Assembly: GCF_963675165.1 (NCBI RefSeq)
Contig: NC_087389.1
Coordinates: 1,584,001 to 1,648,000 of the forward strand
DNA: 64,000 nt
Source of the DNA: Halichondria panicea
Lineage: Eukaryota; Porifera; Demospongiae; Suberitida; Halichondriidae
Direction of reading: 5' to 3'
Both the position numbers and the translations under genes were made by a program. This document shows, in pieces, positions 8,196 to 57,988 of the stretch. Positions within the stretch are counted from its first letter, which is position 1, and the number at the start of each line of letters is the position of its first letter. The notes under the pieces were generated by a model. That model searched no databases. It saw only the letters and a program-made list of their open reading frames with translations, and was not told the origin of the DNA.

Positions 8196-8234
<39 letters not shown>

Positions 8235-28055: not shown

Positions 28056-28800
28056 CTTGAGCTGCAGGACAACAGAGATCTCTTTGTCACTATTGACACG
28101 TGGCAGTTTCTGTAAAACACCGTAGACTATGTCGTATGATCACATGCACTCCTAGATCCTAGCCTCGTTCCCTGGCCGATCCGTCTCCTAGCCTCGTTCC
28201 CAGGCCGCCGATCCGTCTCGGGCCTGGGAACAATGCTAATGCACTCCCAGAAAAGAGAACATTTGATGATCTTTACCCTCTGATCTTTGATTTTAAGCCA
28301 GCCGCCCACGCTTTTACACTCTGAATGATCTCACTGTACTGTCTGGTGCAGCTAGCTAGACTAGTCTAGCTAGCACAGATGCAGCCAGCTAGCCTGTCTT
28401 AGTTTGTACACAGTAATTACAGCTAGTTTTGGGGAGCTTAGAAAGGTCAAGTGTTTCCCGGGGTTTCTACGGTTCAAGAGAACTTGGTACATGGTATGGC
28501 CTTGTCAGGTTTGTTGACCCCAAGGTATTTCCCGGATCCCATGAGTGAAATGAGTGGGATGTGGTGAAGTAGAGAGACTTTTTGTGGTTGGGTTAGCCCA
28601 TGATGATGAGATAAGCTAGTGTAAACTACAATCAAAGGAGTTTCTATCAAGCCAAGTACACTGACCCTCTGACTATTAGAAGAAGGTCTCTACTTCTCTG
28701 AGTGGCAGTTCGAGTAAATCAGTAATCACACCAGTTCTATGTGAAGAATTGATTGATTGATTCTCATACCGGTAACAAAGCTATGCAGTGCTACCCTACA
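28056..28800. promoter_or_regulatory. Divergent intergenic region COPG / LRP5/6 copy 1
   Basis: It separates start codons on opposite strands by 745 bp. It holds two copies of CCTAGCCTCGTTCCCAGGCC type at about 28150-28230, a 24-bp perfect palindrome at 28351-28374, and from about 28612 onward sequence homologous to the DNA upstream of LRP5/6 copy 2 (from about 48996), i.e. a duplicated promoter and leader. Confidence 0.55.
28351..28374. repeat. 24-bp perfect palindrome
   Basis: Two 12-base half sites, GCTAGCTAGACT and its complement, meet without a spacer. It lies between two divergent genes. Function unknown. Confidence 0.85.
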
Positions 28801-31800
28801 ATGATCAGAGGGGCCCTCTGTGTCTGCCTACTGACCCTATGGACACCCCTTCAAGGTACACCATTATAAGACTATAGGCTGCACAAACACAGCACACACT
28901 TTAATACCAAGCCCCGATTTTTTTCTGTTTAAAGGTCGAAAAAAGGGTCTGGAGAATTTCCTATCAACGAGTGTGTTACCGCTGCGCATGCGCATGTTAT
29001 GCAACTTGTCAGCTAGATGCAATGCAATGCAACTGCATCGGTAACAACGAGCTGTAGATATCTAGCTAGCTTCAAGGATGTCTCCTGTCATGTCCCTCTG
29101 TATACTTGAAACCAGCAATCTAAATGCAAGTGCATGGTACTGCAAATAAATTGATTGACGTAGACAAACTATGAACAAACAATTAGTCAGACTATATTTT
29201 TGGGTCAAAACCTCCTTCCTATATTAACACCCCTTATTCATCCTGTTACATCAAGGGAAGGACTTCCTGCCACCTCTTCTTCACCCACTCTCACGATCAG
29301 CTCGCTGGCCATTCAAACCTTGGAATAACAGATCTCTCATTTGTCATAATTATAAATAAAACTACAAAAGCTTGTAAGAGACAACTAGAAAATAGAAAAT
29401 TCTACCTGGCACCCGATACACAACTTGAATATTGCTCAGTTGCCTGCATGGTACCCCCATCAATAGTAAAAAGTTCAATCATTTGCGGGAAGAATAATCG
29501 CGTAAAATCAATTATCACCCACCCCTTTTACCTTTAAGCCCACATCTGTGTCAAAAGTAAATGTCTTATTTGGAGAAGCACTAACCATCTGAACTATCCA
29601 TGTGCATTAGCTCATTAGACTACCGGTAGTTGCAATGGCTTTTTTCACTATAAATTAATCACTCCTTATTATAATTCCTGCATCCTTATTTGATCACTGG
29701 CTATGGAGGACTCGAGAGCTTTTCAACTACACCCAGTTGTAAATACATTGCATATAACCGTGGTTTTACATTTATATTATGAACTACACTGTGCACGGTC
29801 ATCAACTATAAAAAAATTTGTGACCATGCACTGTTTACTATTAGCCACTTACGGTGGTGCACAACTTTGATATAGAAATTTCTCCAGATCAAATTTTTAT
29901 CGGGGCTGGTGCGAAACTAAACACTGCACTGTAGTTGTAGGCTACCCCATAAGGAGAGTGTAAATGTGTAGTAGGTGTGATAATAATTAGCACAAAAAAG
30001 CGTAGAAACAAGCAATCCAGCGAGAGCATAAACTCGCTTGACATATCATTTTTCTTCAATTTTATCACCCCCTCATGGCCAGCTTAATTTCTAATGATTT
30101 ATGGCTCGAGGTGTAGCCGCACGAGGGATATGGTAAAGCTGACTGTGTGTGTGTGTGTGCGTGTGTGTGTCTAGCTGTAACTGCTCAAACGGTTGCAATG
30201 TGACGAAAACTAACAGTTTCTATAGGCTTTTTAATTTAGCTACGTTCTTTTGGATTTTGACTCGTGGATTTGTAAACTAAAGTTTATTTCGTGAGTTATG
30301 GCTAATTTTTTACTTAAAGTTATGGCTGTTGCATTCTCTTCAGAATCTTTCATAGCATCGTCTGTTCGCACAAACTTTCTCTTCAACTTATAAGTTAGTC
30401 TTGCACTGTGCTAATGCCGAGAGGAATTAGCACAGCGCAGCTTGCTACTCCATCAAGTTGTGCCTTCACATACCGTACAGTGGGAAATGTTCGTGGGATG
30501 CAAAATTTCGCGTTTTTCGAGGGCAGAGTATAGTTAACGCGAAAATTAAAACTGGGATAAACTCCCATGCACCGGTATTTCACGTGCAAAGCTATTGGTG
30601 GGGTGGGTGTGGTTTTCTGGCATTGAAACGTGAATAGAACCCACGAAAATGTCTGCAGGGCTCTGGAGCCAAATAACGAAAATTTGCACCCATAAACATT
30701 TCTTGCTATACAGTACTCATTTTAGTCATTCTGGTGTTCTGTAATAGCCCCGAGTATATCACCTAGCTATTTAACAAATCTACTTCTACTGGCTGTTTCC
30801 CTTACTTAATGGCATGGAAGTTTGTATAGAAGTTTGCAAGGAAGTTTGCAAGAATCGTTTACGTCCCGAAAGGTGGTGACAAGAAGAATCCGTTGAACTA
30901 TAGGCCTGTTTCAATACTACCAATTCTTAGTCAAGCTGTTTAGCTTGAAAACTGCTTGAAAATAAGTTGCAGACTTGATGCTAGAGCATTACGAGCAAGT
31001 GAACCACTCGGTAAATCAACTTATACCGCTGTCCTCATTTCCTTCACCCATGATAATTATTGTGAATGCTAGCTGTAGACGTCGGTTATAAGTATGCTGT
31101 GTGTTCTTTGACCTTAGTAAGGCTCGCCCCACTCAATGCATGCTTGTTTGGAAGTTATTAGACCTGCACATGCACCAACTCGGTACTTGTAAAATGGATT
31201 TTACAACTGTCTAACTGTTATCAAACTGTCGTTCTTGATGGTGCTCAATCATGCACTCTACAGGGTGTCATACAGGGGGAAAGGGGGGATATCCCCCCCC
31301 TAGCTCCAATTTCCCCCCCCTTTCAATTATGACTGAGTGTCCATAGCTGGGTATTGAAATAACGGTTGACCTTTTTTTAGCAACATTTTCTGGTTACTTT
31401 TCTCATTTCCCCCCTCTACTTCAAAATCCTGTATGACACCCTGCTCTACCTGTAATTTATAGTGTCCCTCAAGACTCGGTACTGATCGAGCCCTTTACTT
31501 CTTCTATTTATATTGACAAAGTATCGAGTTCAGTAACAAACGGCAGTAGATTTGCCATGTTACTGTATGCTGCCGGTTATCTCATGCATGCACGAGGGAT
31601 GCACCCTCGTGCACAGTTAATACAACTGGAGCCCGAGGGAAAGCGTTGTATTAGCATCCCTCTTGCATGAGTAATAACCTATACATAAAACTGTTAACTC
31701 CAGCATCAATGTCTGCATGATCGTGAATCTAGAAAGCAATTAGATCGATTAGAAAACAGTGCCTTCAAAGATCGCCTACAAGATTCAACTATAACTTAAC

Positions 31801-34800
31801 TAGCCTATTATTTTTCAACTACTGTTTCATTAGCAGTTAAAGGATCTGTACTTGTATATGGCCTGAAATAATGTGAATATACCATCATCAATGGCTCATG
31901 TTACAGCTGCCTCTCCTCTGGTAAATTTCAAGCGTTGACTGATTGATTTGTTACTAGTAGTTGATTGCCTTCATGGTCAGTTAATCTTAGTCATTATAAA
32001 CATTGTCCTGAGCGAGTGTTGTTTCAGTTCCACCTAGATATGTTGTATATAAGTCATGAATTCGATCCTTGCGAGCATATATACACCTGTTTGTCCTCCT
32101 CTCCCACAGGTACATCTGGTGTCTTGTCAGAGCTCTACTTCTCCAACAACAATGACATCATGCGACTGACGAATGGCTCCTCCACTGTGGTTATCCCTGG
32201 CTTGAAACTAGTAGACACTATTGAATGCAATATCTGTGACCGTATGATCTACTGGGTGGACCAGAACCCACCTGTTGCCATCCGTCGAGCCCTCCCCGGC
32301 AACGCCTCCTTTGTGGAGACGGTGAGTCCCTATGTGTTTGGGGGAGGGGTCTACCAATGTGGGGGTGTCACTGTGGTTTCTTCAATTGACATTATACTGG
32401 CTTTGCACATCATTATGTCAGCACATACATGTACTCTTACAGATACTGGATAGGGACCTGGACCATCCCAAGGGGCTGGCCATTGACTGGGTCGGGAACA
32501 ATATCTATTTCTCTCACGGCAACCGTATTGAGGTAGCCACCTGTGACGGTCAACATCGCAGGGTTCTCAAAGTGATAGAAAATGTAGAAGTTGGCCCAAT
32601 TGCCATTGACCTCACTACCGGGTAAGTCATGTGATGATAGGCCTAGTAGCAACATTAAGATCCTGCCTCCTCCTCACACACACACAGGTACCTCTACTAT
32701 GTGGCTGACATGTTCTTTGTTCATCGTATGATGTTGAATGGCAGCTCTGACGACGGGTTTATGCAAGTAGTAGATTCACCAGAGATTATTTGCATGGAGA
32801 TAGATGTTGTTAATCAGGTCCTCTACTGGACCAACAAGGGCGACAGCACACCCTCCTACGCTATCAAGAAACTTGACCTCACTACAGCTGTGGTAAGTGG
32901 TAGTTGACTGTGCATTAGACCATTTACTATGCCCTCCTCTCCCATTGCAGCGACAGGTGGAGGCGATAGTCACTCAAAGCATTGCTTACAAGCTGGTTCA
33001 CCATGGCAACACTCTGTACTGGACTGAGATGAACCGCACCACCTCAGAGATTGACCGACCAGGGGCCCTCTATTCTATGGTACTCGGGTCAGGTGATATG
33101 GAGGAGGAGGTGCTCCTACGCAACTACACACTGAACCCTCAGGATCTCTGCTACTTCTTTGAAATGAATGGTATCCTATGTACTCACAAGTATTTTGTAC
33201 CGTATTAACTACGAACATCAAACATAAGTGAATTTTGTGTTGATCACTTGCAAAAATAAAATCCCAAAAACCTCAGCTATTATACTGGTATACTGGTATA
33301 CTGGAATGACATGTGATCCTTCAGAACACAATACCGTATAGCGGGTATATTTCGAGGGTATAAACTTTCACGGAATAGCAGCCTTTTTGCACCCATGCAT
33401 GCATGCGATTCGTGGGTATAAATGTTCATGGTAGGTGCCTGATCAGCGAACCACGAAAGTTTATAACCTCTAAGTATAATACAGGGCCGTAGATAGCTTA
33501 GGTTTGCAGGGGTAGCAAAATAACAGCTGAACATTTTTATTAGGTCAACTGTTTTTCATATCCTCTGAGTATGGAACTTGTAACTTGCTGTGACACCAAC
33601 TTAGCTATTCATGGAGCAACTAAAACAAGGTAGATTGTACTAAGAAGATGCTCCTGCTTCCCAGAGGCATAGTAGAACTCTGAATTTTACCTAAAAAAAG
33701 GTCACCACTTTTTCTCTGCAGTAAGCATGCGCATCAGATAGCCCTGCCCACATTTGCATTGGGCATCTGCACATCAATGTTTCACAGTAAATCTTGCAGA
33801 TCTAGAATGCTAGGGGGGCAACTGCCCCCCCTGCCCCCCCCGCTGTCTACGGCCCTGTAATACCCGCTATATGGTAGTTAAATCGCAAGAAGTTAACTTT
33901 TTTGTTGATTTGGCTTATTTGCAAAGGTTTTTTACGTGCATGTTGTCGCACTAAAACGAATTGCCATTATTCGTTTCCGGTTGTTTCGTTAGTAGCTTTT
34001 CGTTTTGTACTACATGCGCAAATGATTCTACGGTATGCCAATAAACTGTTCATGTTGCAATTGTGGATCGCACATGTAATCACATCCTGCCCCCCTCATA
34101 CACATAGTGTCCGAGAATAGCTGTGCTATTAACAATGGTGGCTGTGACGTGCTCTGTCTGACGGTGCCCTCCCTCAGGGGTGGGACTGAGCCGCAGTGTG
34201 CCTGTCCTACTGGCATCCTGTTCTCTCCCGATGGCGATACTTGCCTCCCCTGTAAGCTAAGCTAGCTGTCAGCTTAACTACTGCATTTAATTGTATATTA
34301 CTTCAATACCCATGTTTGGACCTAATAAGTCACTCCCCACCACCTACAGACCCAAACAAGTTCCTGCTGTTCACTCAACGCCATGATTCCGATACTAGTA
34401 GCACTGTCAGCCATACTGATGTGAGACTCATCTCTCTGGATGCTCCGCCATTCTTTGTGGACACACCCACCTCTGTGACAGTGCCCAATGCATCAGCACG
34501 GTTCATTGCCTATGATGTCATAACATTATTTGTGAGTGGTGTGTGTGTTTAGTGTGTGTATACTGACCCCCCATATAATGGTGGTGGGGTGCAGATACAG
34601 TTTGTGTTGTGTGTGCATGCATGGTGTACTGTGTATACTAGATGTAGCTAATCTCATGAGAATAGTTCCAGCTAGTGGGTCATTAGTCATATGACAACTC
34701 TGTAAGTATGTGTTGTGTGCCTTGTTCAATACTTGCAGCTGTTGAAACATGATCATGACCATGTATACATTATACTGATGTGTGTGTCCCTGCGTAGGTG

Positions 34801-37800
34801 TACTGGAGCCAGGTGGACCCCCCACAGATTCGTCGAGCCCCGGTGCATGGTACGGAGGGGGAGGAAGAGGTGGTGATCCAGACAAGCATCTCCCTCCCAG
34901 AGTCCCTTGCCATTGACGCCTACGCCATGAACCTCTATTGGGTCGACTCCGCCCTCAATAAGATTGAGGTGGTGGGAATTGGTGAAACCAACAGGTATCG
35001 AAAGGTGCTCGTGCAAACAGGGAGGAAGCCTCTAGGGCTGGCACTCGACCTACTCAACAGGTCTGTCTGGCTTATTAATGTTTGGCATTTGTTGGGGGAG
35101 TTTTTGTAAAGAGAAAGGGTTGTTCTGTTTGGATCAGTGTATTATTATGGTTGCAGGTTTTCATACAGGATTTTTAGCTGAGGGGGGGGGGGAATTATTT
35201 GGGGACCCCCAGAAAAGATTTGGTGATTAAGGAGCAGATTAAATGATGACAATTTAGCTAGGCTAATGCAAATAGGACCTGACTTGAGGTTGTAGACATT
35301 TTTTATACCACACTTACGTCACAACTAATTGATCTCATTGGTCAACAGCTGTAGGATCATACAGCCCCAGGCGTGCACAGTTTTTCAAGTTGTTTTTTAG
35401 TTTTTTCATTTATTCAAAAAAGCTGATTAGCAAAAAGAAAAGAGCCATGCTTAACGGTACTAAGACTCAAAGCGATGGCAGAAACATGGAAGTGTAGTTA
35501 TAAAAAGAGCTTGCAACTCCAGTAAGGGACATCGAAGAGTCAACGCTTGGACCAAGGAACGTCTTGAGCATCTGTAGGAGTTGACGTGTTGCTTAACTAG
35601 CTCTTTGACGGCTGCAAAATCCTTGTTTTTTTTGCAGTCTGCATCGTGGATTGAATTGTTGCTAGGGGGAGGTCCTTTTATAGTACTGCAGTCACGCGGT
35701 ATAAGTCAGATATGCCACACCTACTCGGAAGATATACACCCCACATATATCCTCTGCTACCATGGTTATATATCTCTCGGCTACGCCTCGGAGTAATCAC
35801 GGTAGCAGAGGATATATGGGTACATATCCTCCTCTTAGGTGTGGTATATCCTATACAGAGATAAACCACAGAATTAAATTATTATAATAGCTACATGTAG
35901 ATCTTCATTGTAAAACACCACAGTTTGATATGACATCAAGTTTTGGAAATCCCATGGCGCCCCCCTCCCCGTTCTATATGAAACCCTGGGTCAAGAGTGC
36001 AATATGGGATTAATAGTGCGAGACAAGCAATGGCACGAAGCGTAACCGAGTGCTATTAACCTGCCAGTCAGTGGCGGATCTAGGATTCTTGAAAGGGGGG
36101 TTCCAGGGCTCTGAGCAGGTCGAGGACTGTTATTTTACCTAAAAAAAGGTAGTCACTTCTTCGAAACAGTGAGCATACGCATTAACACACTGAAAACACA
36201 CATAAAGGGAGAGTATCGATTTCTCATAGGAACACTGTAAGGAAAGGGTTGCTCTGTTTGGATCAGTGTATTAGTTGATTAACTGCACACCCGACCGTTC
36301 TTTAGGTTCATGTACTGGACTGACCTTGACAAGAGTGCTCCGAGGGTGGAGCGTTGCCATATGGACGGCACAAATTGCACTCAAATACTCACTCACCTTC
36401 CCCCCAACACTATCCGTGAGCCTGCCACCATCACAGTGGACCCTCTCTCCAGCTGGGTGTACTTTGCTGAGACACAGAGTGACAGAGTGTTCCGCTACAA
36501 CGGTCTCACAGGAGAGCACACAGACGAACAACTGCGTGGTATGTTCTTGTAATTATCATTTACCCCACGTGCAATGAGTGTTGTTACAAACGGTTCACTA
36601 TAGTGTCTCTTTATAGACCCAAAATCTGGAACCGCACCCAATGATGTGGCAGGACTGGCGGTACATGGTAACTACCTCTATTGGACAGATCGTAGTGGCA
36701 CTGGGGCATCTATGGCGAGGATTGACAAGGTCGAATTTACTGCCCCCGAGACTGTACACAACTCAGGGGGTCTCCACGGTCTGCTGGCTGTCGATCACAG
36801 TGCAAGTGCACGTATGTGCAATCCGTGTGCTTGATAACTCTAAATGTTATGATGTTTCCCCCCACTCATAGTTTCCCCTATGTGCTCGCTGTGTGAGCAG
36901 CTGTGTCTGTCCCCCTCATGTGCATGTGCAGACCACTTCATATTGGACACCTCCACTCAAGGAAGTTGTTGGGGTGAGCCACAAACCACGCTTGCCCACA
37001 TACATGTACTGTTAGCGTACTAGCGTATGTACATGCAAGTATAAACTCCTTGAGACTACTGACCTACCCCACATAGAGCCACCAGCCACTCTGTTGATGG
37101 GTAGCACCCTCCGGGGGGTCTTCCAGTTTACAGAGAACAGTGCTAGCGTCAACTGGAATGGGAACAATGAACCAATTCTTAATATTAATGTGGACCATAT
37201 GGATGTTGACTTCAGTACTGACACTCTCTTCTGGGTCAGCAAGGACGACAAGGTACGTCCCTCTGGGTCACATGACTGGCACATGATCCTCACATGACCT
37301 CCCTGCATGCAGCTGGTGTATCGTAACTCACTGAAAAACACCTCCCTCCCGGCTGAGCGTGTAGTGCACTGCTGTGTGGGGGAGATTAGCGATCTGGCTG
37401 TTGACTGGTTTGGCCGCAACCTCTACTGGGTGGACTCTGCTCGTCACGTGATTGAGGTAGCCCAACTTGATGGTCGTCACAGGATTGTGCTGTACAATGT
37501 CCCCCCTCGCCTGGGGACACTCAACATCATCACACTGGATCCCCTCAGGGGGTAAGCAAATGTTACTGTACATGTACAAGCAAAATTATTATGTGTGCTA
37601 TGCATAATATATATATTATGTGTATGACCCCCCCCTCCACACACATACACAGCTATCTATATTGGTCTCCAGATTCTGGAGCAAAAATCTATCGCTGGAG
37701 GATGGACGGGAGCAGCACAATGTCACCCGATGCGTTCTGGGAGTCACCTGACTATACTGAGGTGTTCGGATTGGCTCTCAACTACACAGCTAATGCAGGA

Positions 37801-40800
37801 ATCAGCGACCAGCTTTACTTCGGAGTGTACAGCAATGACCCGTGAGTATATAGTCACATGACTAACCTCATGACTGACCGTGATATTTCATGACATGCAG
37901 ACCGGGGTGGCTGGTGCACAGTCAGGAAATGGATGATGAGGACAACCTATCGCTACTGGGGCAATTTAACTCAGCTGTCAAGGACCTCAGCACTTACAAA
38001 GGGGACTCGTACATCATACAAGGAGACATGTACGTGTTGGTGCTACATAAGTGTTGCTAGCACTATTATTGTAACGGTTATGAGATCGGCTTTACCAGCT
38101 GTTGTATGTTTGTATCTACAGTAGTCTACCCACTGTGGTGAAGGTGCAGCACGATGACTTAACTAACAGCCACAGCGAAGTTGCCATACCAATTGCCCTG
38201 TTTAACCAGCCACTCTCCACTCTCTCATTGGCAATCAGCCATCACTCACTGCAACCAGGTGACTAAGTACACAACTAGGATCAAGTAGGGAGAGAGGGAC
38301 TGGGTTAGATGGTTCAAGTGTATCATAGCTAACTTACGACATGTAATGCTTGTGTTACTGATTCGGTGTATTGTACATGTATATGTACTACAAATATAAT
38401 TAGTAGTGTTATTCCCTCAGGTCTCCACGAGTGCAGTGTGGACAACAGGGGCTGTGGTGGGGGAGCAGTGTGTCTGGTGGAGACAGGGGTGAGGGGGGCC
38501 TGTGTCTGCCCACCTCTAGAGGCCAGTGTAATTGAAACAGACAGCAATGGCATCGACCATATCGCCTGTGTTGGTGAGAGATACATGTAGTTGTCTATTA
38601 ACAAGTCTTCTCTTTATAAGCTTAGCCCTTGATATTAACTAGTGCTATGCAGTAGTTGTACATGTAGTGTAGTATATAGCAGCTGTTGATGATGTACAAT
38701 CGCCAACCCCAGCTGAGGACACTTTTGTGTTGCTGGCCACTGAGGATGGTGTGTACGTCCTACCATACGTGTCGCCTTCCATTGAGAAGAGCTCCAGTAA
38801 GGTACAGCCCTTCCCCCTTCCTCCGGTGGGGTCTATTCAGAGTCTGACCTATGACCCCATCAACAAAAGTGTCCTGTTTACTGACGACACCTCACAGCTG
38901 CACAGGTGAGTATGTTAGAATATTTTTCCTTTCAAAGGTCCATTTTAGATTAGCGTTCAGATTCATTTTCGAAGAAAAAGCATGGGTAGATTAGTATAGT
39001 ATAATTTATACTCGCACAATCATTTGTTTTATACAATGTCATAATTAAAAGTGTGTCTCTCTCCTTGTGCAGTGTGTCACTGGACAGTTCTTCTGACTAC
39101 TCGTACCCGTTGGTCAATGACTCCGCCCCCTATTCCCTGGCGTACGACTGGAGAGGTGGCCACGTCTTCACTACAACAAGCCCTGGTTTCCAAATAGAGC
39201 TCACCACCATCAACGGGGAAGGGGTGGGCTCAGTACTGGACTTCCAGAGGACGGACAAACGCTATGTCCTTAACATACTGGGAGAGCTACTCTTTGACAC
39301 TGACAGACAGTGAGTTACAATCTGTGCATATATTACCAGGAGGACATGAGATGGAGCTGGAGCGTCTTACTACGCGGATTTAATATCGTCCTGCTGTGTA
39401 CAAACATTGCCAAATATATGTCAAACTGCTAAGTGCTGCTAACATTAATCATTGGTACTTAATGAACAAACGCGGTCAGCCATACACGTATACAGAGGAT
39501 TTAGCACATATTCAGTACAAACAAGGAAATGTGGTTAGATGATATTGAGTCCGCAATACTAAGATGGCTCCATCTCCTCATGTGCTCCTGATATTACCAA
39601 GAGTACTCCATACATAGTACATTTTTTCTTACTATTTATGGGCTCCTGATATTTCTGAATGTCACTGACATCACTTCCCCTCAGGCGATTGTATTGGACG
39701 TATGTGGCTCACGACGGTGAACTGGGTGTAGATGTGGGGGTGGAGCTTCGTTACATGGACCTGTCTGACAACACCAGGACTGAGCGCTCTGTTGACCTCG
39801 GAGGACGAAGGATCAGGAACATCACTCTCGAGCCAGAGAGTGGCTCCATCTATTGGGTCAGCATTGTCAACACTGACTATGTCATCATTGAGAGATTTTT
39901 CCCTAATAATGGGACTGTCGTATCCATCCAATCGGCGACAGCTAGTGTGATGGGATTAGCTGTTACCATGGTGAACAGTCAGCCGCTCCTATTCTGGTAC
40001 GACAGTGCAGAGGAAGTCATCTTCCTGCACGATGGTAGGCAAGAGGTATCCTATAGAGGGTGGAGTTCTGGGGGTGCCAGGATAGTGGGCATGCTTGCAC
40101 ATACAACTATGCCGGGTGAGTGGAGTTACTGAGTGACTAATCGCAATAATTATGTACATACATGTAAAGTTATGTATGTCATGTTTCAAGCAATCCCCAC
40201 CTCTCCCCCAGTTCCGGTTAATCTTCCCTGCTTGGCTGCAGAGAGGCCGTGCAGTCACTACTGTTTGTCTAACTCCCACAGCTCAGCTCTTCAGTGTTCC
40301 TGTCCCTCCAATACCCAGCTGGAGAACGGCGTCACATGCTCTGGTAGGCCACCCCCTCACTTTCATTGTGTGTGTGTGTATGTGTACGGGATAGCTATCA
40401 TTAATTGTATACTCCCCCTCCTAGATGTCTCATGTGGTAATTCGCTGTGGTCGTGTGGAGGGGACTCCCCAGAATGCTACCCACGGACCTACTTGTGTGA
40501 TTACATTCCTCACTGTCGGAACAGGGCCGATGAAACATGTAAGCCATGACAACTTCTGTGTCTCTGATTGACTTGGTATATTTTGTATATGTGTACGTAT
40601 ACAATCAAGACCCAGTTTCTTTGTAATTATGACTTTTTATAATGTACATAGAGTTACTGTAATTATTGCCTGCATGTGTGCAGTGTATGATGTATTTTAG
40701 CCATAATATTATTTACTGCCCTTTGCCTTGCAGGTAACTGTAATCGGAGTGACTTTGGTTGCTATCTCTCTGACACTGGTGACGAGTGTGTGGCCATGGA

Positions 40801-41312
40801 GTTCAAATGTGATGGTATCAGCCACTGTTCCCATGGCGAGGACGAGATGGATTGCTGTGAAACCAATCAGTTTGGCTGCTACGTAGAGGACGACACCTAC
40901 AAACCTCTGGGGGGTGGGTCGGTGATCCGCTACCACTGTCTCCATAACTCCTCTCGTTGTGATGGCATGGTGGACTGTCTGAACCAAACCATCAATGAAC
41001 CTCTAGATTGTGAGTGGCGCTCTGCACAGAATGTGTACCCCTGACCTGCTACATGCATGTATTTAAATAGAATGCATGCTCTGGCCAATATAGGATTTAT
41101 AGAACAATGTAGTTCGTATTAATTGACGTTCTACAATGTGTCTTGTGTACCTATACCATATCCCCCCTCCAGGTCCTACCACTATGACCCCTGAACCTAT
41201 GACCACGCCTCCTTCAATTACCACCTTTCTGATCATCATCACCGGTGTTGTTGTTTCGTTCTTTATAGCTGTTCTTCTTCTGTTGCTACTTGTTTACAAG
41301 AAAAGGTTATGA
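28801..41312 (+). CDS. LRP5/6: LRP5/6-type Wnt co-receptor ectodomain, membrane-anchored, no cytoplasmic tail (copy 1)
   Basis: Twenty-four exons, 1511 aa: 28801-28855, 32110-32321, 32443-32621, 32688-32892, 32951-33170, 34108-34251, 34350-34531, 34798-35060, 36306-36538, 36617-36811, 36872-36973, 37077-37252, 37313-37551, 37653-37841, 37901-38029, 38122-38258, 38421-38573, 38713-38905, 39073-39309, 39685-40115, 40212-40343, 40425-40538, 40734-41009, 41173-41312. Order: signal peptide (1-18); YWTD propeller 1 (19-290), EGF (291-338); propeller 2 (339-629), EGF (630-663); propeller 3 (664-953), EGF (954-1004); propeller 4 (1005-1291), EGF (1292-1335); three LDLa modules (1336-1465); one TM helix. 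This is exactly the LRP5/6 plan. The protein stops after KKRL, four residues past the helix, so no PPPSP signalling motif. All other exons are open. An in-frame ATG at 28783 is an alternative start, absent in copy 2. Confidence 0.9.
30471..30715. mobile_element. MITE, 'CCGTATAGC' family, degenerate
   Basis: TACCGTACAGTGGGAAATGT at the left and the imperfect complement ending in CTATACAGTA at the right. The interior holds TTCGTGGG and CCCACGAA blocks like the family copy at 33332. Confidence 0.65.
31261..31443. mobile_element. MITE with CAGGGTGTCATACAG ends and 5-bp target duplication
   Basis: The ends CAGGGTGTCATACAGG and CCTGTATGACACCCTG are perfect complements. CTCTA flanks both sides. The interior is C- and T-rich with no coding capacity. 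Confidence 0.85.
33332..33876. mobile_element. 'CCGTATAGC' family MITE split by another element
   Basis: Left end TACCGTATAGCGGGTATATT and right end AATACCCGCTATATGGTA pair as terminal repeats once the inserted element 33482-33857 is removed. It lies in intron 5 of LRP5/6 copy 1 and is missing from copy 2. Confidence 0.8.
33482..33857. mobile_element. Nested element with CAGGGCCGTAGA ends
   Basis: CAGGGCCGTAGATAGC at the left, GCTGTCTACGGCCCTG at the right; TAATA is duplicated at both borders (33477-33481 and 33858-33862). It is 376 bp and non-coding, and it interrupts the surrounding MITE. Confidence 0.85.
35061..36305. other. Expanded intron 8 of LRP5/6 copy 1
   Basis: It is 1245 bp; the cognate intron of copy 2 is 175 bp. 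The extra DNA is bounded by two copies of AAAGGGTTG(T/C)TCTGTTTGG and following bases (about 35113 and 36243). It contains an inverted-repeat element (35711-35848) and a GTGGCGGATCTAGGATTC block near 36070. Confidence 0.75.
35711..35848. mobile_element. Palindromic MITE-like element
   Basis: ATGCCACACCT at the left and AGGTGTGGTAT at the right; internal arms ATATATCCTCTGCTACC and GGTAGCAGAGGATATAT also pair, so the whole 138 bp can fold as one hairpin. Confidence 0.8.
39337..39590. mobile_element. MITE in intron 19 of LRP5/6 copy 1
   Basis: CAGGAGGACATGAGATGGAGC at the left faces GCTCCATCTCCTCATGTGCTCCTG at the right, with ATATTAC on both sides. Copy 2 has a single ATATTAC at the same point, an empty site. 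Confidence 0.85.
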
Positions 41313-44300: not shown

Positions 44301-44787
44301 TGGGTGCATGTGCTTCAGGTAAAATTGCCTACACATCCTGGTATGATATCGATATCAGCTGCATGTTCTGGTATATAATTATAAACAAACATTGTGCATA
44401 AACGATATCAAGCCTTTGATGTGGTCTGCCAGTACGCTATAAAATCTAGTGTTTTCTTGCAGAGTTGATTTCCTAGTCTTCAGGTTATCTCCCAACCCCC
44501 ACAACTCTGTATACAGCACTCATATAATCCCCTCACTACTCCCAACCTCCCCTGACCCCCAGAGGCCACGTGATGCTCATGGACTTTGAACTGTACCTAT
44601 AGAGACTCGTCTAGTACATGATTGATGGCTGTTGGTTTTGTTAATTTATTATTGTGTTTAATCATAATCTTATCTTGATTGGTTGTGTGCAACAACATAT
44701 TATTGATGGGTTACAAACTCGTAATTAAAAGTGTGCATCAAAAATTGAAAACCTATATACGTATTGAACTCTGAGGAGGCTCTATCA
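41313..44787. other. Convergent intergenic region, LRP5/6 copy 1 / RIC8
   Basis: About 3.5 kb with no exon I can support. A dispersed repeat related to 60822-61413 covers roughly 41370-41810 (blocks GCTGCTCAAGGATCAATGAA and GCCTCGGTGCGCATG). No remnant of the cytoplasmic-tail coding region of copy 2 is recognisable here. Confidence 0.55.
43998..44109. mobile_element. Short inverted-repeat element
   Basis: GGAGGTACGACAG faces CTGTCGTACCTC about 100 bp away. Probably a small MITE; no clear target duplication. Confidence 0.5.
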
Positions 44788-47700
44788 TCAATCTTCTTCT
44801 GACTTATCCTGGTCTAAAACTGGCTTCCCATCTTTACCCACTGGCATCACCTTGATCACACCGTGTCTGCACGAGTACACAACACGTCGTACACATAATA
44901 AACATAAAATTATGGCCATTAGTCAGTTGTGTGTGTAGTGCCTACTAAAACGTTTTAGTAACCGTAGTGTTGTACAGTAGACTCTCGTTAATCCGGTCAC
45001 CCTTGGGACAGTGCAGCTTGGCCGGAATAGCGAGCTGGCTGTATTCCAGGAAATATAGCCGTGGCTTAAAACGACCTTATCTCGAATCTAATGACTAATT
45101 TTGCAGTTCTTGTCTCGAGGATAATGAATCATTCTGCTCTTATCTGCCAAACCACACCTACGTCATATCCGGCCGTAATAAACGTATAAAATTACCTTGA
45201 CAACCTAGTTTGGGGCAGCCAGCACTGGCCAGTATACGGAATAGCGAGTGGCCGTACTTTAGGGTGAGTTTTGTGCAGTAATTATTTAGCTAGCAATCCG
45301 TGCCAAACCAAAATAATGGCCGGTATATCGAGGTGGCCGTACTTCAGAGAACCGGAATAGCGAGAGTCTACTGTATTGGAGTAACAGTACCTGTTCAGTT
45401 TGTCGAACAGCTCTGCCAGTTTCTCTGCCTCAATCTCCTTCTCCTCTTCAGTCATGTGATCCAAGGGGGAGGGGCTATCCTCAATGTCACCTGGCCCCGC
45501 AGTTACTGGGTCCAGTCTACACACCAATGTCAGGCAACATGAAGACATGCACCAAAAGCAGCCACTCACTTGTCACGTGATCTCTGATACTCCTCTGTGT
45601 CAGAGCTTTCACTGTCTGACGAGTACTGCTCCTCCCCTTCACAACGCCCTCCCCCTAACAATCCACGAGACATGAGTAGACCAGCAGCATTCCCGAAACC
45701 AGTGTGTTTCACCAGACGAGATACTGTGTGTGTGCATATGTGTGTGTGTGTGCGTGTGACAAGCCGCACACATTTGAATTTCTGTGACGTATATATGTGT
45801 TATCAATAATGGCGGCCATGAAATAGCATACTCACCGTTCTCTTTACACAGCACAAAGAGCAGGTCAGCTGTTACTTCCTCTGCGCCCATTGACCCCGCC
45901 GTCATCAGACATACTATCCTGCAGGCAGGGATAAAATACCACTAGCATTACAGGGACTACACGACTAACATGCTCTTGAGGGAGTTCCCCTCATCTGGTC
46001 GCTGTGTGATCTCCTTCAATGTGGGCAGAATCTGCACAGAGGACAAGAGCAGCTAACACCAACCCACACACAGTCACACACACATCACTCACAATGGACC
46101 TGAGGTAGCGTCGTATGCTGCGGTGACCCTTAGCCAACACCCTGAGGGCAGTCAGTGCTGGGGAGAGACGGGAACGCTCTGAGTCACAACCCTGCAAGAG
46201 AGTGGTACAAATGTCTGTGATTTTAAGACTTGGCTCACCAGTTGCCAGTGAAGGTAGTTGATGAGTGACAACACTGCACACATGTTCCAGTCATCACACA
46301 CACAGTCAAGGTTGCTAGCGTACAGGCCATCACAGTCGTAAAGGTCAGGGTACAGAGGTCGTAATGTGGGCATCACTTGAACATCCCCGGGGAACAAGAA
46401 CGACACAGCACACTGCTCTGGAGTGTTGACCAGAAGCTCAGCACAGTGACTGTGGGACAACAAAGATAATTGTATAGAAACATTGCTATTGATCAAAGTG
46501 TATAGGAGATTATTTACTTAATTACATGGCATGAAACTAGGAGAATTCCAGTCATGGCTCAAACAAAACACACACACACACGAAGTATACCTGATGGTGT
46601 CTGTGGTAGTCTTGTCTCTGTGTGGGGGGAGAGAGATAAGGAGGATCCGTACCAACTGAGAGAGGCGTCGCCACAGGCACAGCTCATCCTGCACACACAC
46701 ACACCCTCACAACTCACACACACACTTGCACCATCCCCTTACCTCATCATACTCGTCCTTCCAGTTGAGAGTTTGGTTGAACAGGATCTTGAGGGCCTCA
46801 CACAACACACTGCACTGACGCACTGAGATGGGCGTGGTCAAACAAGCAACACCCTCTCTTGTTAGGTTACATGGTGACACCTTCGGTTTCGGCTCATCCT
46901 CACAGATGGGTGTGGCTTGAACAGAAACCATACCCTCTTTCGGTGACGGTCCGAACAAAGTAGCATCAACAAGATTGACTAGAATAGGAATTCCATTACA
47001 GCAGTCTCTGAACGCTACCCTGCAATTAAGATGTAGAGTAAGTAACCGATCTTCGCAAGATACCTATAATCGGCGGCTATTGCACGAAGCACAAGATGAT
47101 TTTGCACAAAACTAACTACATGGACCTACAGATTGGTAAGAAAGTAACAGCTCCCAAAAATTTGGAAAGAATAACTTGCTTGCGGACGGAGTGGTGGTCA
47201 TGAGAAGTGAGCTGCCGAATTGTTCAATTGTCGTCAGTGAGACATTTATCTCCGTCTTTGCACGCTTACTAAGCACTGAAACTACCAGCACTAAACAATA
47301 CTTCTTGGCACAATTCTAACTAGTGAGCACTACTTGCAGGCAGTGTTAGCTGCAGATCGAGCCCCACCCAGTAGAGCTGACAAAAATTTTGCAAAAAAAA
47401 TAATGCTGATTCAGCAATAATTGTGCACATAATCTTCAGTGCGGCCTGTAATCGAGGCTAATCCCAGTTTAATTATTGCTGACTGTGCACAATTGTTGCT
47501 GAATCAGCATTATTTTTTTGCAAAATGTTCGTCAGCTCACTGGGTGGGGCTCGATCTGCAGCTTTGCCAGCAAGTAGTGCTTACTAGTTAGAGTTGTGTC
47601 AAGAAGTATTGTTTAGTGCTGGTAGTTTCAGTGCTTAGTAAGCGTGCAAAGACGGAGATAGATGTCTCACTGACGACAATTTGGCAGCTCACTTCTCATG

Positions 47701-48129
47701 ACTACCACTCTGTCCGCAAGCGAGTTATTCTTTCCAAATTTTTGGGAGCTGTTACTTTCTTACCCATATGTAGGTCCATGTAGTTAGTTTGTGTAAAATC
47801 GTCTTGTGCTTCGAGCAATAGCCGCCGATTATAGGTATCTGGCGAAGATCGGTTACTTACTCTACATGTAGGAATATTATTGAACTACACGAGTTGTACA
47901 TACCTCTCAGCTGGCCCACAAGCCGTGATGAGGAACAAGAGTCTGAGGTCAAAGAAGAGGAGGTCATGTGGTGGCTGCAAGGTGGCTGCCAGGGAGAGTC
48001 TGGATGAGAGGCCAGTCAGACAGCCAATGTCCGCCGTGAGGGGGGCCAGGTAGCGATGATTGAGTACAATGTTACACAGTACTTTGGTCGCCTCAACTAT
48101 CACTACAGGGGGGGGGGGGGACAGAGCTA

Positions 48130-48168
<39 letters not shown>

Positions 48169-48858
48169 CACACACAAGTGAGCATCCTCTCCATGCAGTC
48201 ACCCACCTTCCAGTCTGTCTGCAGGTATGTCCTCCTCTGAGCCATGAGTACTCAGCCCAGCGAGCTGTGCTATCACAAGCAACCCATCCCGACTGATGAG
48301 CCCCTCCACACCTTGATGCTCCCGGGCAAATACCCTGAGGGCATTCAGTGCTAATGAGAGTATCCTTGGTGACCATATCCCCTCCTCTTGTAGCAGGCGC
48401 AGTACAGCACTGCAGAAGGACTGTGAGAGGACATACAGAGAGTGTTGTAAGATCAATGCATGTACGCACGTATTCAATACCTTTCTGATGTCTGTACTCT
48501 CTCCAAGCTGGAAGTTGGTCTTGTTCTAGAAGAAAAAAAGCAGTACGCTCGTTAATAAATACTGCATACGTTCGCACAACCGTCTAAGACCCTCAGCATT
48601 ACAGTCTTCCCCAGTAAAAATACAAGCTTGGTGCTTGTACGTCTAATTTAGCCAGTTCACCGTCAAATGTCAGTATTACGCCAGTCAAGATCCTCGAGTA
48701 GATAGTACTAATTGTTATGTATATGCCATGATATGGGGACTAGCCCTTTAGTTTAGTATGAGATATGATGGTCTGCTTACCTCCTCCGTGAACTGCTGTA
48801 GAGCTGTCAGCACTGCCGCACCGTCTCCAGCCTGGATGATCTTAGTGACCGTCTCCAT
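44788..48858 (-). CDS. RIC8: RIC8 (synembryn), G-alpha chaperone and exchange factor
   Basis: Thirteen exons on the minus strand (48858-48781, 48525-48481, 48420-48207, 48102-47904, 47019-46743, 46688-46591, 46449-46239, 46191-46093, 46031-45970, 45918-45836, 45723-45570, 45516-45391, 44866-44788) give 574 aa; vertebrate RIC8A has about 530. RIC8 folds nascent G-alpha subunits and acts as a receptor-independent exchange factor. Matching stretches: [12 protein letters not shown] near 169-180, LRSIVxPxL-like armadillo repeats, [27 protein letters not shown], the acidic S/D/E block before the YQRSRDK region, LDPVTG-like LDPVTAG, and [22 protein letters not shown]. Intron 4 is nearly filled by a large foldback repeat. 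The start codon lies 330 bp from that of LRP5/6 copy 2, on the other strand. Confidence 0.93.
44975..45373. mobile_element. pogo/Tigger-type MITE in the last RIC8 intron
   Basis: CAGTAGACTCTCGTTAATCCGG at the left and CCGGAATAGCGAGAGTCTACTG at the right, flanked by TA on each side. Such CAGT-starting ends with TA duplication are typical of pogo-like Tc1/mariner elements. No transposase frame is present. Confidence 0.85.
47031..47867. repeat. Large foldback (inverted repeat) element in RIC8 intron 4
   Basis: Two arms of about 400 bp (47031-47431 and 47484-47867) are complementary almost throughout; outer ends are ATGTAGAGTAAGTAACCGAT and its complement, inner ends near TGCTGATTCAGCAATAATTG. 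The spacer is about 50 bp. The repeat starts 10 bases from the intron 3' end and stops about 36 bases from the donor. No coding capacity. It is a foldback transposon or inverted duplication. Confidence 0.9.
48110..48170. repeat. Poly-G and (CA)n tract in RIC8 intron 3
   Basis: About ten G (48110-48120) and then a CA run. It lies near the acceptor of RIC8 exon 4. Confidence 0.75.
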
Positions 48859-49187: not shown

Positions 49188-52100
49188 ATGAGCAGAGGAG
49201 CCCTCTGTGTGTGCCTACTGACCCTATGGACACTCCTTCAAGGTACACCATTATAAGACTAGAGCACACAGACACAGCACACACATACACCACTACACAC
49301 ATACACCACTACAATGTAGCTGTACTGTATAGTGCTACCCCATAAGGGGAGTGTGAATGTTTGGTAGGTTGTGTGTGATATAAATAATAGAGACATTGTG
49401 TGTGTATGTGTGTACTCTTCTAGGTGATTGGTAAATTTCAGGCTTGTATTTACGGAATGCATACCATGTTCTCATATGAAGGCGCCCAGCTCTACTGTGA
49501 ATAGTGAATAGAGAGTCAGCGTTGTGTAGTGTGTAGTGTGTGCCAAACACATCACTAACAGCCTGGGGCCGTTATTGGGGCTAATGAAGCGATGCAGTTG
49601 AGCTTCCATTCACTTTATATTGACTATGAATAGACTGCGTATTTCATGTACTATATAATAAATACGGTGTAAATCATACTTTCTATGTAAATACTTTATG
49701 GTTACTAGTAACAGTTTTGGCAGTTGATTGAAGGCTTTGTTTTAGGTGAAGCCTTTGTGCTGCTGTCTTACCAACTAGAGGGTAAATGGTGCATGATTCA
49801 ATTAATTAGTGGCACCTGGGTAATGTGATTTTAAAGGAAGGTAGCTACAGATGGTGACTAGAATTTCCTGTGTATGTGCCTAGTCAGATGGAATGTGTTG
49901 CTGACTTGCCCATATACTGTGTGTACTGTGTGTGCATTTGTACAGCATTTAATTGTCAACAAGAGCTGGAACCCATGCTTACATTACCACTGTGCTCTTG
50001 TATCTTGCTACGATATCCATCAGGTAGTTGAAACAACTCCACTGGCTGGTGCAGTAGTGCAGTAGGAGCCTAATCCTTTGGAATTCCATAAGCCGTCTGA
50101 TCACAGTCTATCTCTTGTACTTACAAGTACTGAGTGCCAGTAATGACAGCATTTGTTGTGGCTTTTTGAGTGGCTTCAAGCTCGTGTGTGTTTGTGCCTG
50201 ATTGCCATTCTTAAGATAAATGTCTGTATTCACGCACGATCCACTAGCTCCAGTCAGTGAATGTGGTAGGCCTTGAAGTCAGACTCTGTAGCACCAGTCT
50301 CACTAGTCACGCCTTTAGGCAGGCGGTATGCGTAGACAACACCTTTAGTAGGTATGTAGTGCAGTAGTCTCTCCTTGGTTAGGCCTGTTCAAATGTAATA
50401 CTCACTGGTATGCGTTGTAACTCTTCAATCTATGGTTACCGTAGTATTCACCACAGAACATTGGTTATACTGATGTCTGTCCTGATAATTTGTAAGGGTG
50501 CCCCAATCTCGCTAATCTAATTAGCTAAGAACAAGTTTTTGTGTTACCGTGTTTCTAATCGATTGCTAGAGGGCTTACATGTGTAGTTCACTTGTCTTGG
50601 TTAGTTCACACACACGTTCTCTCCTTGTATACCCCAGCTGCTGCTCTGAGTCATGTGAGCCCCCTGTAATGCAACAGTGCGTACTCTCTTATGCAATAGT
50701 TTACATGTAGATCATTAATGTTCCTAGCTTTCACACCACAGTGCCTGTCTGTTTGACCTGGCACGGAGCTACATGAATGGTAGCACTGATTGATGATCGG
50801 TTGACTGGATTTGGACATGCTATAGTGGGTGTAACCTGGCATCAAGCCCTATCAATAATGTACAGTGGTCTTGTAGTAGCCAATCTGATATCGTAACCCT
50901 TTTATAAGGATCTGATTAGATTAATGTCTTGTACTTGTACATGGTTAGCCTTGTTCCCAGGCCGATTTTTCTCTAAAAGAACGGAAGGGAGAAAACTAGG
51001 CCTGGTACCCCTTCAGTATTATGGTGAACGAATTGAAACCACGCCCATATACAATCTTTACCAGGCCTAGTTGGTGACCTAAAGACAACTCGACCTAGGG
51101 ACGAGGCTAGTACATGGGCCTGAAGGCGCTGCAATGTATTAATAACATGTGGTGAATGTGTGGGGGACTATCATCAATGGCTCATGTTACAGCTGCCTCT
51201 CCTTTAGTGAATTTCAAGCATTGGCTGATTGAAGGCCTTTTGTTATTAGTAGTTGATTGCATTCATAGCCAGTTAATCTTTGTCCTGAACGGGTGTTGTT
51301 TGATTTCCTAGAAATGTTGTAAGTCGTGAATTCCTTGCGAGGTATATACACCTGTTTATCCCCCTCTCCCACAGGTACAGCTGGTGTCTTATCAGAGCTC
51401 TACTTCTCCAACAACAATGACATCATGCGACTGACGAATGGCTCCTCCACTGTGGTTATCCCTGGCTTGAAACTAGTAGACACTATTGAATGCAACATCT
51501 GTGACCGTATGATCTATTGGGTGGACCAGAACCCACCTGTTGCCATCCGTCGAGCCCTCCCCGGCAACGCCTCCTCTGTGGAGACGGTGAGTCACTGTGT
51601 GTGTGTGTGTGTGTGTGTGTGGGGGGGGGGGGAGGGATCTACCAATGTGGGGTGTGGTTTATTTACTGGCTTTTGCATGTCTTGTGTCAGCACATACATG
51701 TACATACCATATGCGCGAGGGTATGCATGTAAATGTTTACGGTTTTCACTGATTAAGAATATAATATCGCATGCATGCATGCATGCTGCAAAAGGCTGCT
51801 CTTCCGCAAAAATTAAATCAGCAAAAACCTTTCGAACAGTCTCTTTCCGTGACAGTTTATACCCTCTAAACATACCCGCTATACGGTACCTCTTACAGAT
51901 CCTGGATAGGGACCTGGACCATCCCAAGGGGCTGGCCGTTGACTGGGTTGGAAACAATATCTACTTCTCTCACGGCAACCGTATTGAGGTAGCCACCTGT
52001 GACGGTCAACATCGCAGGGTTCTCAAGGTGATAGAAGATGCAGATGTTGGCCCAATTGCCATTGACCTCACTACCGGGTAAGTCATGTGATGATAGGCCT

Positions 52101-55100
52101 AGTGGCGACATTAAGATCCTGCCTCCTCCTCACACACACACAGGTACCTCTACTATGTGGCTGACATGTTCCTTGTTCATCGTATGATGTTGAATGGCAG
52201 CTCTGACGACGGGTTTATGCAAGTAGTAGATTCACCAGAGATTGTTGGCATGGAGATAGATGTTGTTAATCAGGTCCTCTACTGGACCAACAAGGGCGAC
52301 AGCACACCCTCCCACGCTATCAAGAGACTCGACCTCACTACAGCTGTGGTGAGTAATATCCTGTAGCTGCTATCTACTAGTAATTGGCTGTGCACTTAGC
52401 AATTGCATTGACCATTTACTACCCCCCCTCCCCCATTTCAGCGACAGGTGGATACGATTGTTACTCAAAGTATTGCTTACAAGCTGGTTATCCATGGCAA
52501 CACTCTGTACTGGACTGAGTTGAACCAGGTTGACCACACCACCTCAGAGATCGACCGACCAGGGGCCCTCTATTCCATGGAACTCGGGTCAGGTGATATG
52601 GAGGAGGAGGTGCTCCTACGCAACTATACACTGAGCCCTCAGGATCTCTGCTATTTCTTTGAAATGAGCAGTAAGTGTTAATATTCTTGTATACCAATAA
52701 ACTGTTTGTGTTGTTGATATGGCATATCAATAGAATGACATGCTGCCCCCCCCCCCCTAACACACACGTAGTGTCCGAGAATAGCTGTGCTGTTAACAAT
52801 GGTGGCTGTGACGTGCTCTGTCTGACAGTGCCCTCCATCGGGGATGGGACTGAGCCGCAGTGTGCCTGTCCTACTGGCATCCTGTTCTCCCCCGATGGCG
52901 ATACTTGCCTCCCCTGTAAGCTAAAGCTAGCTGTCAGCTTAACTACTGCATTAATAGACTGGCGTGTATATTACTTCAATACCCATGTTTGGACCCAATA
53001 AGTCACTCCCCACCACCTACAGACCCAAACGAGTTTCTACTGTTCACTCAACGCCACGATTCCGATGCTAGTAGCGAAGTCAGCCACACTGACGTGAGAC
53101 TCATCTCTCTGGATGCTCCGCCATTCTTTGTGGACACACCCACCTCTGTGACAGTGCCCAATGCATCAGCACGGTTCATTGCCTATGATGTCGTAACATT
53201 ATTTGTGAGTGGTGTGTGTGTTTAGTGTGTGTATACTGACCCCCCATTTAATGGTGGTGGGTGCAGATACATGTACAGTCGGTGTTGTGTGTGGTGTGTA
53301 CTACATGTACCTGTGTAGCTAATCTCATGAGAATAATTCCAGTGGGTCATTAGCCATGACACTGTAATTAGTCACCTCCTCCACTGCCATGCCCACCAGC
53401 TATTGTGTGTGCTGTATTCAAAGTCCTTATCCTTTGTGTACTGTTACCTTATAAATAAATGATAAGGTGATCGGAGAGAGTGTACTTGTGTAGTCATTAT
53501 CCTAATGTGTTGTGTGCCTTGTAATCAATACTTGCAGCTGTTGAAACACGACCTGACCATGTGTGTATATAATTATATGTGTGTGTCATTGTCCCCTACC
53601 CCCTGTGCAGGTGTACTGGAGCCAGATGGACCCCCCACAGATTCGTCGAGCCCCAGTGCATGGTACGGAGGGGGAGGAAGAGGTGGTGATCCAGACGAGC
53701 ATCTCCCTCCCAGAGTCTCTTGCCATTGACGCATACGCCATGAACCTCTACTGGGTCGATTCTGCCCTCGACAAGATCGAGGTGGTGGGAATTGGTGAGA
53801 CCAACAGATATCGAAAGGTGCTTGTGCAAACAGGGAGGAAGCCTCAGGGGCTGGCACTTGACCTACTCAACAGGTCTGTCTGATACAAGTTTGGTATTTT
53901 GTTGGGGGAGTTTGTTACATACAGTGTAATAGTATTATTACCGTATAAAGGGAGAGTATCGATTTCTCATAGGAACACTGTAAGGAAAGGGTTGCTCTGT
54001 TTGGATCAGTGTATTAGTTGATTAACTGCACACCCGACCGTTCTTTAGGTTCATGTACTGGACTGACCTTGACAAGAGTGCTCCGAGGGTGGAGCGTTGC
54101 CATATGGACGGCACAAATTGCACTCAAATACTCACTCACCTTCCCCCCAACACTATCCGTGAGCCTGCCACCATCACAGTGGACCCTCTCTCCAGCTGGG
54201 TGTACTTTGCTGAGACACAGAATGACAAAGTGTTCCGCTACAACGGTCTCACAGGAGAGCACACAGACGAACAACTGCGTGGTATGTTCTTGTAATTATC
54301 ATTTACCCCACGTGCAATGAGTGTTGTTACAAACGGTTCACTATAGTGTCTCTTTATAGACCCAGAATCTGGAATCGCACCCAATGATGTGGCAGGGCTG
54401 GCGGTACATGGTAACTACCTCTATTGGACAGATCGTAGTGGCACTGGGGCATCTATGGCGAGGGTTGACAAGGTCGAATTTACTGCCTCTGAGACTGTAC
54501 ACAACTCAGGGGGTCTCCACGGTCTGCTGGCTGTCGATCACAGTGCAAGTGCACGTATGTGCAATCCGTGTGCTTGATAACTCTAAATATTATGATGTTT
54601 CCCCCAACTCATAGCTTCCCCTATGTGCTCGCTGTGTGACCAACTGTGTCTGTCCCCCTCGTGTGCATGTGCAGACCACTTCATATTGGACACCTCCACT
54701 CAAGGAAGTTGTATGGGTGAGCCACAAACCACGCTTGCCCACATACATGTACTGTTAGCGTACTAGCGTATGTACATGCAAGTATAAACTCCTTGAGACT
54801 ACTGACCTACCCCACATAGAGCCACCAGCCACTCTGTTGATGGGTAGCACTCTCCTGGGGGTCTTCCAGTTTACAGAGAACAGGGCTGGCGTCAGCTGGA
54901 ATGGGAACAATGAACCAATTCTCAATATTAATGTGGACCATATGGATGTTGACTTTAGTACTGACACTCTCTTCTGGGTCAGCAAGGACGACAAGGTATG
55001 TCCCTCTGGGTCACATGACTGGCACATGATCCTCACATGACCTCCCTGCATGCAGCTGGTGTATCGTAACTCACTGAACAACACTTCTCTCCCGGCTGAG

Positions 55101-57954: not shown

Positions 57955-57988
<34 letters not shown>

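Follow-up and report, generated by a model that had tools for sequence, protein, structure and literature searches.

The window analysed here, a stretch of 64,000 nucleotides from the sponge Halichondria panicea (assembly GCF_963675165.1, contig NC_087389.1, positions 1,584,001 to 1,648,000), carries two neighbouring genes which, judged from their sequences, encode Wnt co-receptors of the LRP5/6 type. Copy 1 (28801-41312, + strand, 1511 amino acids, ATG at 28801, TGA at 41310-41312) ends right after its transmembrane helix, and copy 2 (49188-59818, + strand, 1805 amino acids) continues into a cytoplasmic tail. A first-pass annotation of the same DNA had described copy 1 as a tail-less paralogue beside the full-length receptor and had suggested that it might be a natural decoy. 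The sequence of the two genes confirms the observation, and the decoy reading is partly supported.

All positions are given in the numbering of the window, and all genome-wide searches covered the 131.5-Mb assembly with its 39 contigs. The gene models were derived with a codon-and-splice-site model, and exons that it had overlooked or cut short (signal peptide, EGF 1 of copy 2, EGF 2, EGF 4 of copy 1 and the first LDL-receptor class A (LDL-A) module) were completed by hand. The model reproduces the limits previously proposed for copy 1 exactly. As had also been claimed, each copy has a full ectodomain and a transmembrane helix, encoded by 24 coding exons with the same phases in both genes and with GT-AG at 23 of 23 introns. 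The domain order is the same in both copies: signal peptide, four propeller-EGF pairs, three LDL-A modules and the transmembrane helix. Past this helix, the approximately 290 residues with PPPSP-type motifs that had been ascribed to copy 2 are indeed present and include PPPSPMT, PPSPVT and PPMSPDS, while no such motifs exist in copy 1. The features of the two genes are:

28622..28800, + strand: 5' flank of copy 1, with a homologous counterpart at 49002-49187 before copy 2 (the complete match, 28622-28899, has 73.9%; blastn, alignment)
28801..28855, + strand: copy 1 exon 1, signal-peptide-like start by reading (gene model)
32110..33170, + strand: copy 1 exons 2-5 (32110-32321, 32443-32621, 32688-32892, 32951-33170), beta-propeller 1 (gene model, LRP6 match)
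33168..34032, + strand: extra stretch of 865 bases in copy 1 intron 5, about 21 bases in copy 2, abutting the exon 5 donor
34108..34251, + strand: copy 1 exon 6, EGF 1 (gene model)
34350..36811, + strand: copy 1 exons 7-10 (34350-34531, 34798-35060, 36306-36538, 36617-36811), propeller 2 (gene model)
36872..36973, + strand: copy 1 exon 11, EGF 2 with six cysteines (gene model)
37077..38258, + strand: copy 1 exons 12-16, propeller 3 (gene model, structure-chain match)
38421..38573, + strand: copy 1 exon 17, EGF 3 (gene model)
38713..40115, + strand: copy 1 exons 18-20, propeller 4 (gene model; best PDB match, together with EGF 4, is LRP6)
40212..40343, + strand: copy 1 exon 21, EGF 4 (gene model)
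40425..41009, + strand: copy 1 exons 22-23, three LDL-A modules (PF00057, three stretches)
41173..41312, + strand: copy 1 exon 24 with stalk, transmembrane helix and stop (gene model, hydropathy)
41226..41297, + strand: copy 1 transmembrane segment of 24 residues (hydropathy, alignment)
41298..41312, + strand: copy 1 C-terminus, KKRL-stop, of canonical KKxx form; homology to copy 2 stops here
49188..49242, + strand: copy 2 exon 1, signal-peptide-like start (gene model)
51375..58658, + strand: copy 2 exons 2-23 (exon 6 at 52772-52915), full LRP5/6 ectodomain (gene model, structure-chain and Pfam matches)
58803..59818, + strand: copy 2 exon 24 with stalk, transmembrane helix, CCYCC at 58928-58942 and the tail of about 290 residues (gene model, hydropathy)
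59180-59200, 59696-59713 and 59741-59761, + strand: copy 2 tail motifs PPPSPMT, PPSPVT and PPMSPDS, respectively (by translation)

Assignment of both genes to LRP5/6

In comparison to solved LRP chains, the ectodomains of copy 1 and copy 2 score 338 and 333 bits with LRP4, 211 and 218 bits with LRP6 (4dg6) and 162 bits each with LRP6 (4a0p). The top scores of the full ectodomain are obtained with LRP4 and LRP2, whose solved chains exceed those of LRP6 in length. Since the top-scoring LRP4 chain is longer than the LRP6 chains, the assignment is based on the order of the modules, on propeller 4 and on the tail of copy 2. Propeller 4 together with EGF 4 finds LRP6 as the first PDB match (E 4.7e-10), and propeller 3 matches chains of LRP2, LRP4 and LRP6. 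By reading of the gene models there are four pairs of beta-propeller and EGF, with four six-cysteine EGF exons, and in both copies three LDL-A stretches (PF00057) lie between propeller 4 and the membrane. In LRP4, the LDL-A modules are N-terminal. Pfam is weak alone, as Ldl_recept_b is above the cut-off for the whole protein, at the cut-off in propeller 3 and without a match in propeller 4. The PPPSPxS-type cytoplasmic tail that is typical of LRP5/6 is found in copy 2 and is missing from copy 1. From the LDL-A order, propeller 4 with EGF 4 and the PPPSP-type tail of copy 2, both copies are judged to be LRP5/6 rather than LRP4 or LRP2.

Integrity and origin of copy 1

The two copies have identical residues at 1382 of 1509 aligned codons, and every ectodomain cysteine of copy 2 is present in copy 1. 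Over exons 1-23, the synonymous divergence (dS) amounts to 0.114 and the nonsynonymous divergence (dN) to 0.038. The resulting dN/dS of 0.33 (bootstrap 0.245-0.425; 0.27 for exons 1-8, 0.375 for exons 9-16 and 0.36 for exons 17-23) is the Ka/Ks comparison that the first-pass annotation had proposed, and it is indecisive by itself in simulation (200 runs for each of four scenarios, with a simulated dS of 0.135, somewhat above the observed one). If both copies evolve at 0.33, a dN/dS ≤0.331 is reached in 98% of the runs; if copy 1 is neutral, it is reached in 1% of the runs with copy 2 at 0.1 and in 0.5% with copy 2 at 0.2. Because the estimator runs low in simulation, the ratio by itself is weak, and the use of pairwise dN/dS as stand-alone proof of selection was set aside.

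The integrity of the frame is stronger evidence for maintenance than this ratio. In the 4.4 kb of coding sequence of copy 1 there is neither a stop codon nor a net frameshift. About 7.0 stops would be expected for a neutral branch with a length of 0.057 per site, which stands for the full synonymous divergence (probability of none 0.0009), and 4.6 for one of 0.038 per site (probability of none 0.0097), and none of the 200 simulations was free of stops in any of the four scenarios. The exon lengths are equal for 19 of exons 1-23, and exons 5, 14, 16 and 20 of copy 1 differ by -9, +3, +3 and -3 bases, respectively (part of these differences was rendered by the aligner as six small gaps summing to -3). 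Among the introns we counted 119 indels in 2246 aligned bases, 86 of them not multiples of three, a rate which would have broken the frame of a non-functional duplicate many times. The frame of copy 1 has been kept since the duplication, from which we infer that it reflects selection for a product. These tests span the time since the duplication, and their bearing on the tail-less form presupposes a truncation of the same age.

It had been argued that the intactness of copy 1 speaks against simple decay, and the missing stops and net frameshifts support this. However, part of the similarity of the ectodomains looks like gene conversion and not only like constraint. The stretch 36202..38296 (+ strand) is 95.5% identical to 53945-56047, introns included (blastn), with mismatches at 10 of 547 positions in introns 9-15 versus 111 of 1699 in introns 2-8 and 16-23 (p 5.6e-6, with boundaries picked after viewing the data; single introns outside, for example intron 6, are equally similar). 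This 2.1-kb stretch looks gene-converted between the copies. The last exon differs most, with a dN of 0.27 that is partly alignment noise from indels, and its alignment contains gaps of 9, 8 and 10 bases.

The homology between the copies (blastn) begins 179 bp before the ATG and reaches the juxtamembrane codons of exon 24. There is a break in it within intron 1, insertions interrupt it in further introns, and intron 8 of copy 1 is about 1 kb longer than that of copy 2. The end of the DNA homology coincides with the end of the copy 1 frame, and therefore copy 1 looks as if it was born truncated by a partial duplication ending inside exon 24, which is the simplest account. The duplication would have taken the 5' flank and the gene up to the first residues past the transmembrane helix and would have left the tail behind. 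A later deletion of the tail of copy 1 is kept as an alternative; the sole downstream matches to the surroundings of copy 2 are dispersed repeat. One candidate for homology that resumes after a deletion (41489-41804 versus 60817-61191) was rejected, as 41474-41804 is part of such a repeat. Published work is cited here and below from extracts of the respective papers. Both the LRP5/6 of the sponge Halisarca dujardinii, described as single (PMC8235796), and vertebrate LRP6 (PMC8473786) have a motif-bearing tail, so copy 1 would be the truncated derivative.

When the C-terminal half of the ectodomain was searched against the genome, all 12 matches fell inside this window, and hence no third copy was found. 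The 34 Ldl_recept_b matches in the genome (on contigs C5, C6, C7, C11 and C13) are unsorted and include other LDL-receptor relatives. A genome search for a second tail returned the tail of copy 2 and one match on contig C16 (E 0.73) containing a stop, and a translated search of 41291-49200 for a tail exon downstream of copy 1 found nothing better than E 0.068.

The C-terminus and the putative role of copy 1

That copy 1 ends right after the helix is correct, and the stop follows five residues past it; the end reads YKKRL-stop. The hydrophobic run is intact (peak hydropathy 3.12 versus 2.83 in copy 2). Four juxtamembrane cysteines that are kept in copy 2 (CCYCC) are lost in copy 1, because 17 bases common to both copies (41274 and 58921) are read in different frames, with gaps of 8 and 10 bases flanking them in the alignment. 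Human LRP6 is reported to need palmitoylation at two cysteines next to its helix for efficient exit from the endoplasmic reticulum (ER; PMC5102578). A C-terminal KKxx is a COPI-bound retrieval signal that needs lysines at -3 and -4 and a free C-terminus (PMC3521961). Copy 1, as a predicted type I membrane protein, has lysines at exactly these positions. Since palmitoylatable cysteines are absent and a KKxx is present, two features of copy 1 appear to be pointing to the early secretory pathway, and neither is a proof.

Copy 1 would give a type I membrane protein that has the LRP5/6 ectodomain in full and presumably could not recruit Axin/GSK3, as it has no tail. It might stay in, or cycle through, the ER and early Golgi. 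In the ER it could pair with copy 2 via the ectodomain or the transmembrane helix, or it could occupy MESD or other folding factors, and the outcome would be less full-length co-receptor at the surface. The leading reading, which we hold only tentatively and with somewhat less than even confidence, is that copy 1 is an inhibitory tail-less pseudoreceptor held in the early secretory pathway. The more specific idea of a genome-encoded intracellular trap, which by loss of the ER-exit cysteines and gain of a KKxx sets Wnt competence by holding the full-length sister or an LRP chaperone in the ER, is rather unlikely. Matches to the MESD, Wnt, Frizzled and DIX families were found elsewhere in the genome.

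Several observations weigh against a retained and functional copy 1. According to the same study of human LRP6, a minor part of the palmitoylation-deficient protein still exits the ER (PMC5102578). By reading, 2 of 17 cut points in the first tail residues of copy 2 would also yield a KKxx, so the motif is possibly accidental, and a tail of five residues may not be long enough for COPI. Possibly the truncation occurred later than the duplication, and copy 1 has an extra, unpaired-looking cysteine at residue 184. All exons are open with GT-AG everywhere, yet the earlier statement that all of them are spliceable has to be restricted with regard to exon 5, whose donor is ATG/gtatcc in copy 1 and GCA/gtaagt in copy 2. 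Among the 46 donors, that of copy 1 exon 5 has the lowest score with a generic matrix (-1.29, followed by 0.09) and the fourth lowest with a matrix trained on these genes, and retention of intron 5 would stop the frame at 33206. Finally, gene conversion can refresh a dying copy, 11% of the 200 runs reach a dN/dS ≤0.331 if copy 1 is neutral and copy 2 immutable, and a short neutral branch of 0.02 per site leads to 2.5 expected stops with a probability of none of 0.085.

These points would fit a young partial duplicate without function, which has stayed readable through chance and through conversion by copy 2 sequence and is starting to decay, and we regard this as unlikely, albeit the strongest of the competing explanations. 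The gene-conversion-like stretch, the weak donor beside an insertion with a dispersed repeat (approximately 33482-33860, within the 865-base stretch of intron 5), the fast-changing last exon with its gaps, the extra cysteine and the share of neutral runs all agree with it. Against it speak the 0 stops versus approximately 7 expected, the frame that withstood the indel rate of the introns, and matches to solved LRP chains that are not clearly worse than those of copy 2. With regard to a pseudogene, copy 1 therefore gives a mixed picture of an unbroken frame, yet a weak exon 5 donor and a dN/dS of 0.33. If copy 1 is not expressed, it would be a partial duplicate kept readable partly by gene conversion.

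A surface decoy, with copy 1 at the plasma membrane, where it would bind and withhold Wnt or other ligands or enter unproductive complexes with Frizzled, seems a little less probable still. The decoy proposed by the first-pass annotation, which draws on the missing tail, is plausible, and the dominant-negative effect of LRP6 without its intracellular domain, which had been brought forward in its favor, is supported by PMC8473786. The whole ectodomain, the strong transmembrane helix, the Wnt and Frizzled genes in the genome and a KKxx tail that may be too short to function are also consistent with it. However, with its juxtamembrane cysteines lost and KKRL at its end, copy 1 would be expected to leave the ER poorly, which speaks against a position at the surface. 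Moreover, a search of the genome for Dickkopf_N gave no match, although this search lacked a positive control.

It is very improbable that copy 1 transcripts splice to a non-homologous tail exon, the continuation that would have contradicted a tail-less protein. A GT at 41306 stands after AAG exactly where the homology to copy 2 ends, and on the generic donor matrix it scores -0.60, above the copy 1 exon 5 donor and below the other 45 donors. On the locus-trained matrix, however, it reaches -4.95, less than any of the 46 donors in use, and among the 4464 + strand GT sites of the window 3982 score at least as high; furthermore, no tail-like exon appeared in the searches of the downstream DNA and of the genome described above. 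An assembly artefact or joined haplotypes are very unlikely, since the two genes share a contig, differ in their flanks and are separated by a Ric8 gene, dS is approximately 0.11, and outside this window the assembly contains no match to the C-terminal half of the ectodomain.

With an ectodomain and a membrane anchor but no signaling domain, copy 1 appears to belong with the pseudoreceptors. BAMBI is a decoy pseudoreceptor of this kind, a membrane-anchored receptor relative without a signaling domain. It is from another family, and in copy 1 inhibition is only putative and features resembling ER retention are present. Another likeness is LRP6 without its cytoplasmic domain (cited as Tamai 2000 in PMC8473786), which like copy 1 consists of ectodomain and transmembrane helix and has no PPPSPxS tail, but it is a laboratory construct and copy 1 is a genomic gene. 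Drosophila Off-track2 (Otk2) is a shortened tandem paralogue of the Wnt co-receptor Off-track and forms hetero-oligomers with its full-length sister, for which the transmembrane domain is needed (PMC4091708). Unlike copy 1, it is a member of the PTK7 family, has also lost two immunoglobulin-like domains and is presented in that extract as a co-receptor and not as a decoy (PMC4091708). The Frizzled-4 splice variant Fz4-v1 is, like copy 1, a natural receptor-derived Wnt modulator without the signaling part; however, it is a secreted splice variant and copy 1 a separate gene with a membrane anchor (PMC4077065). The LRP5/6 of H. dujardinii resembles copy 2, with four propeller-EGF tandems, three LDL-A repeats and a motif-bearing tail, whereas the extract reports one LRP5/6 gene in the transcriptome, with five PPPSPxS motifs, and mentions no tail-less copy (PMC8235796). 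In the titles and abstract openings of the open-access literature searched, no natural tail-less LRP5/6 gene was found.

If copy 1 is expressed and active, evolution would have produced in this animal, in the form of a separate gene, a counterpart of the dominant-negative LRP6 otherwise known from engineering, and it might act via trafficking. It would be a natural and testable case of control of the Wnt response at co-receptor export, in a probably early-branching animal.

Neighboring genes and repeats

The gene that separates the two copies is the following:

45285..48583 (outer limits approximate), - strand: Ric8 gene (PF10165 on two open frames)

Inside its span, 47031-47867 matches its own reverse complement at 87.6%, which indicates a fold-back element or a long palindrome. 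Two dispersed repeat families are represented at 33482-33860 (copy 1 intron 5) and at approximately 41474-41804, with at least 51 and at least 71 genome matches, respectively, among 40 scored candidates each.

Elsewhere in the window, 8063-9316 and 12682-13947 are similar to each other in direct orientation (74-84%, in three pieces). Carn_acyltransf is matched by an open frame at 13280-13624 (- strand), so a carnitine acyltransferase-like gene has probably been duplicated here. The gene upstream of copy 1, at 25773-26483 (- strand), matches Adaptin_N. We take it to resemble coatomer gamma, a COPI subunit, and its adjacency to a gene for a KKxx-ending protein is probably a coincidence. Outside the window, at C3:7793044-8072323, five near-identical DIX-domain matches lie within 280 kb, each interrupted by one TGA and one TAA, which suggests an amplified, possibly intron-split gene.

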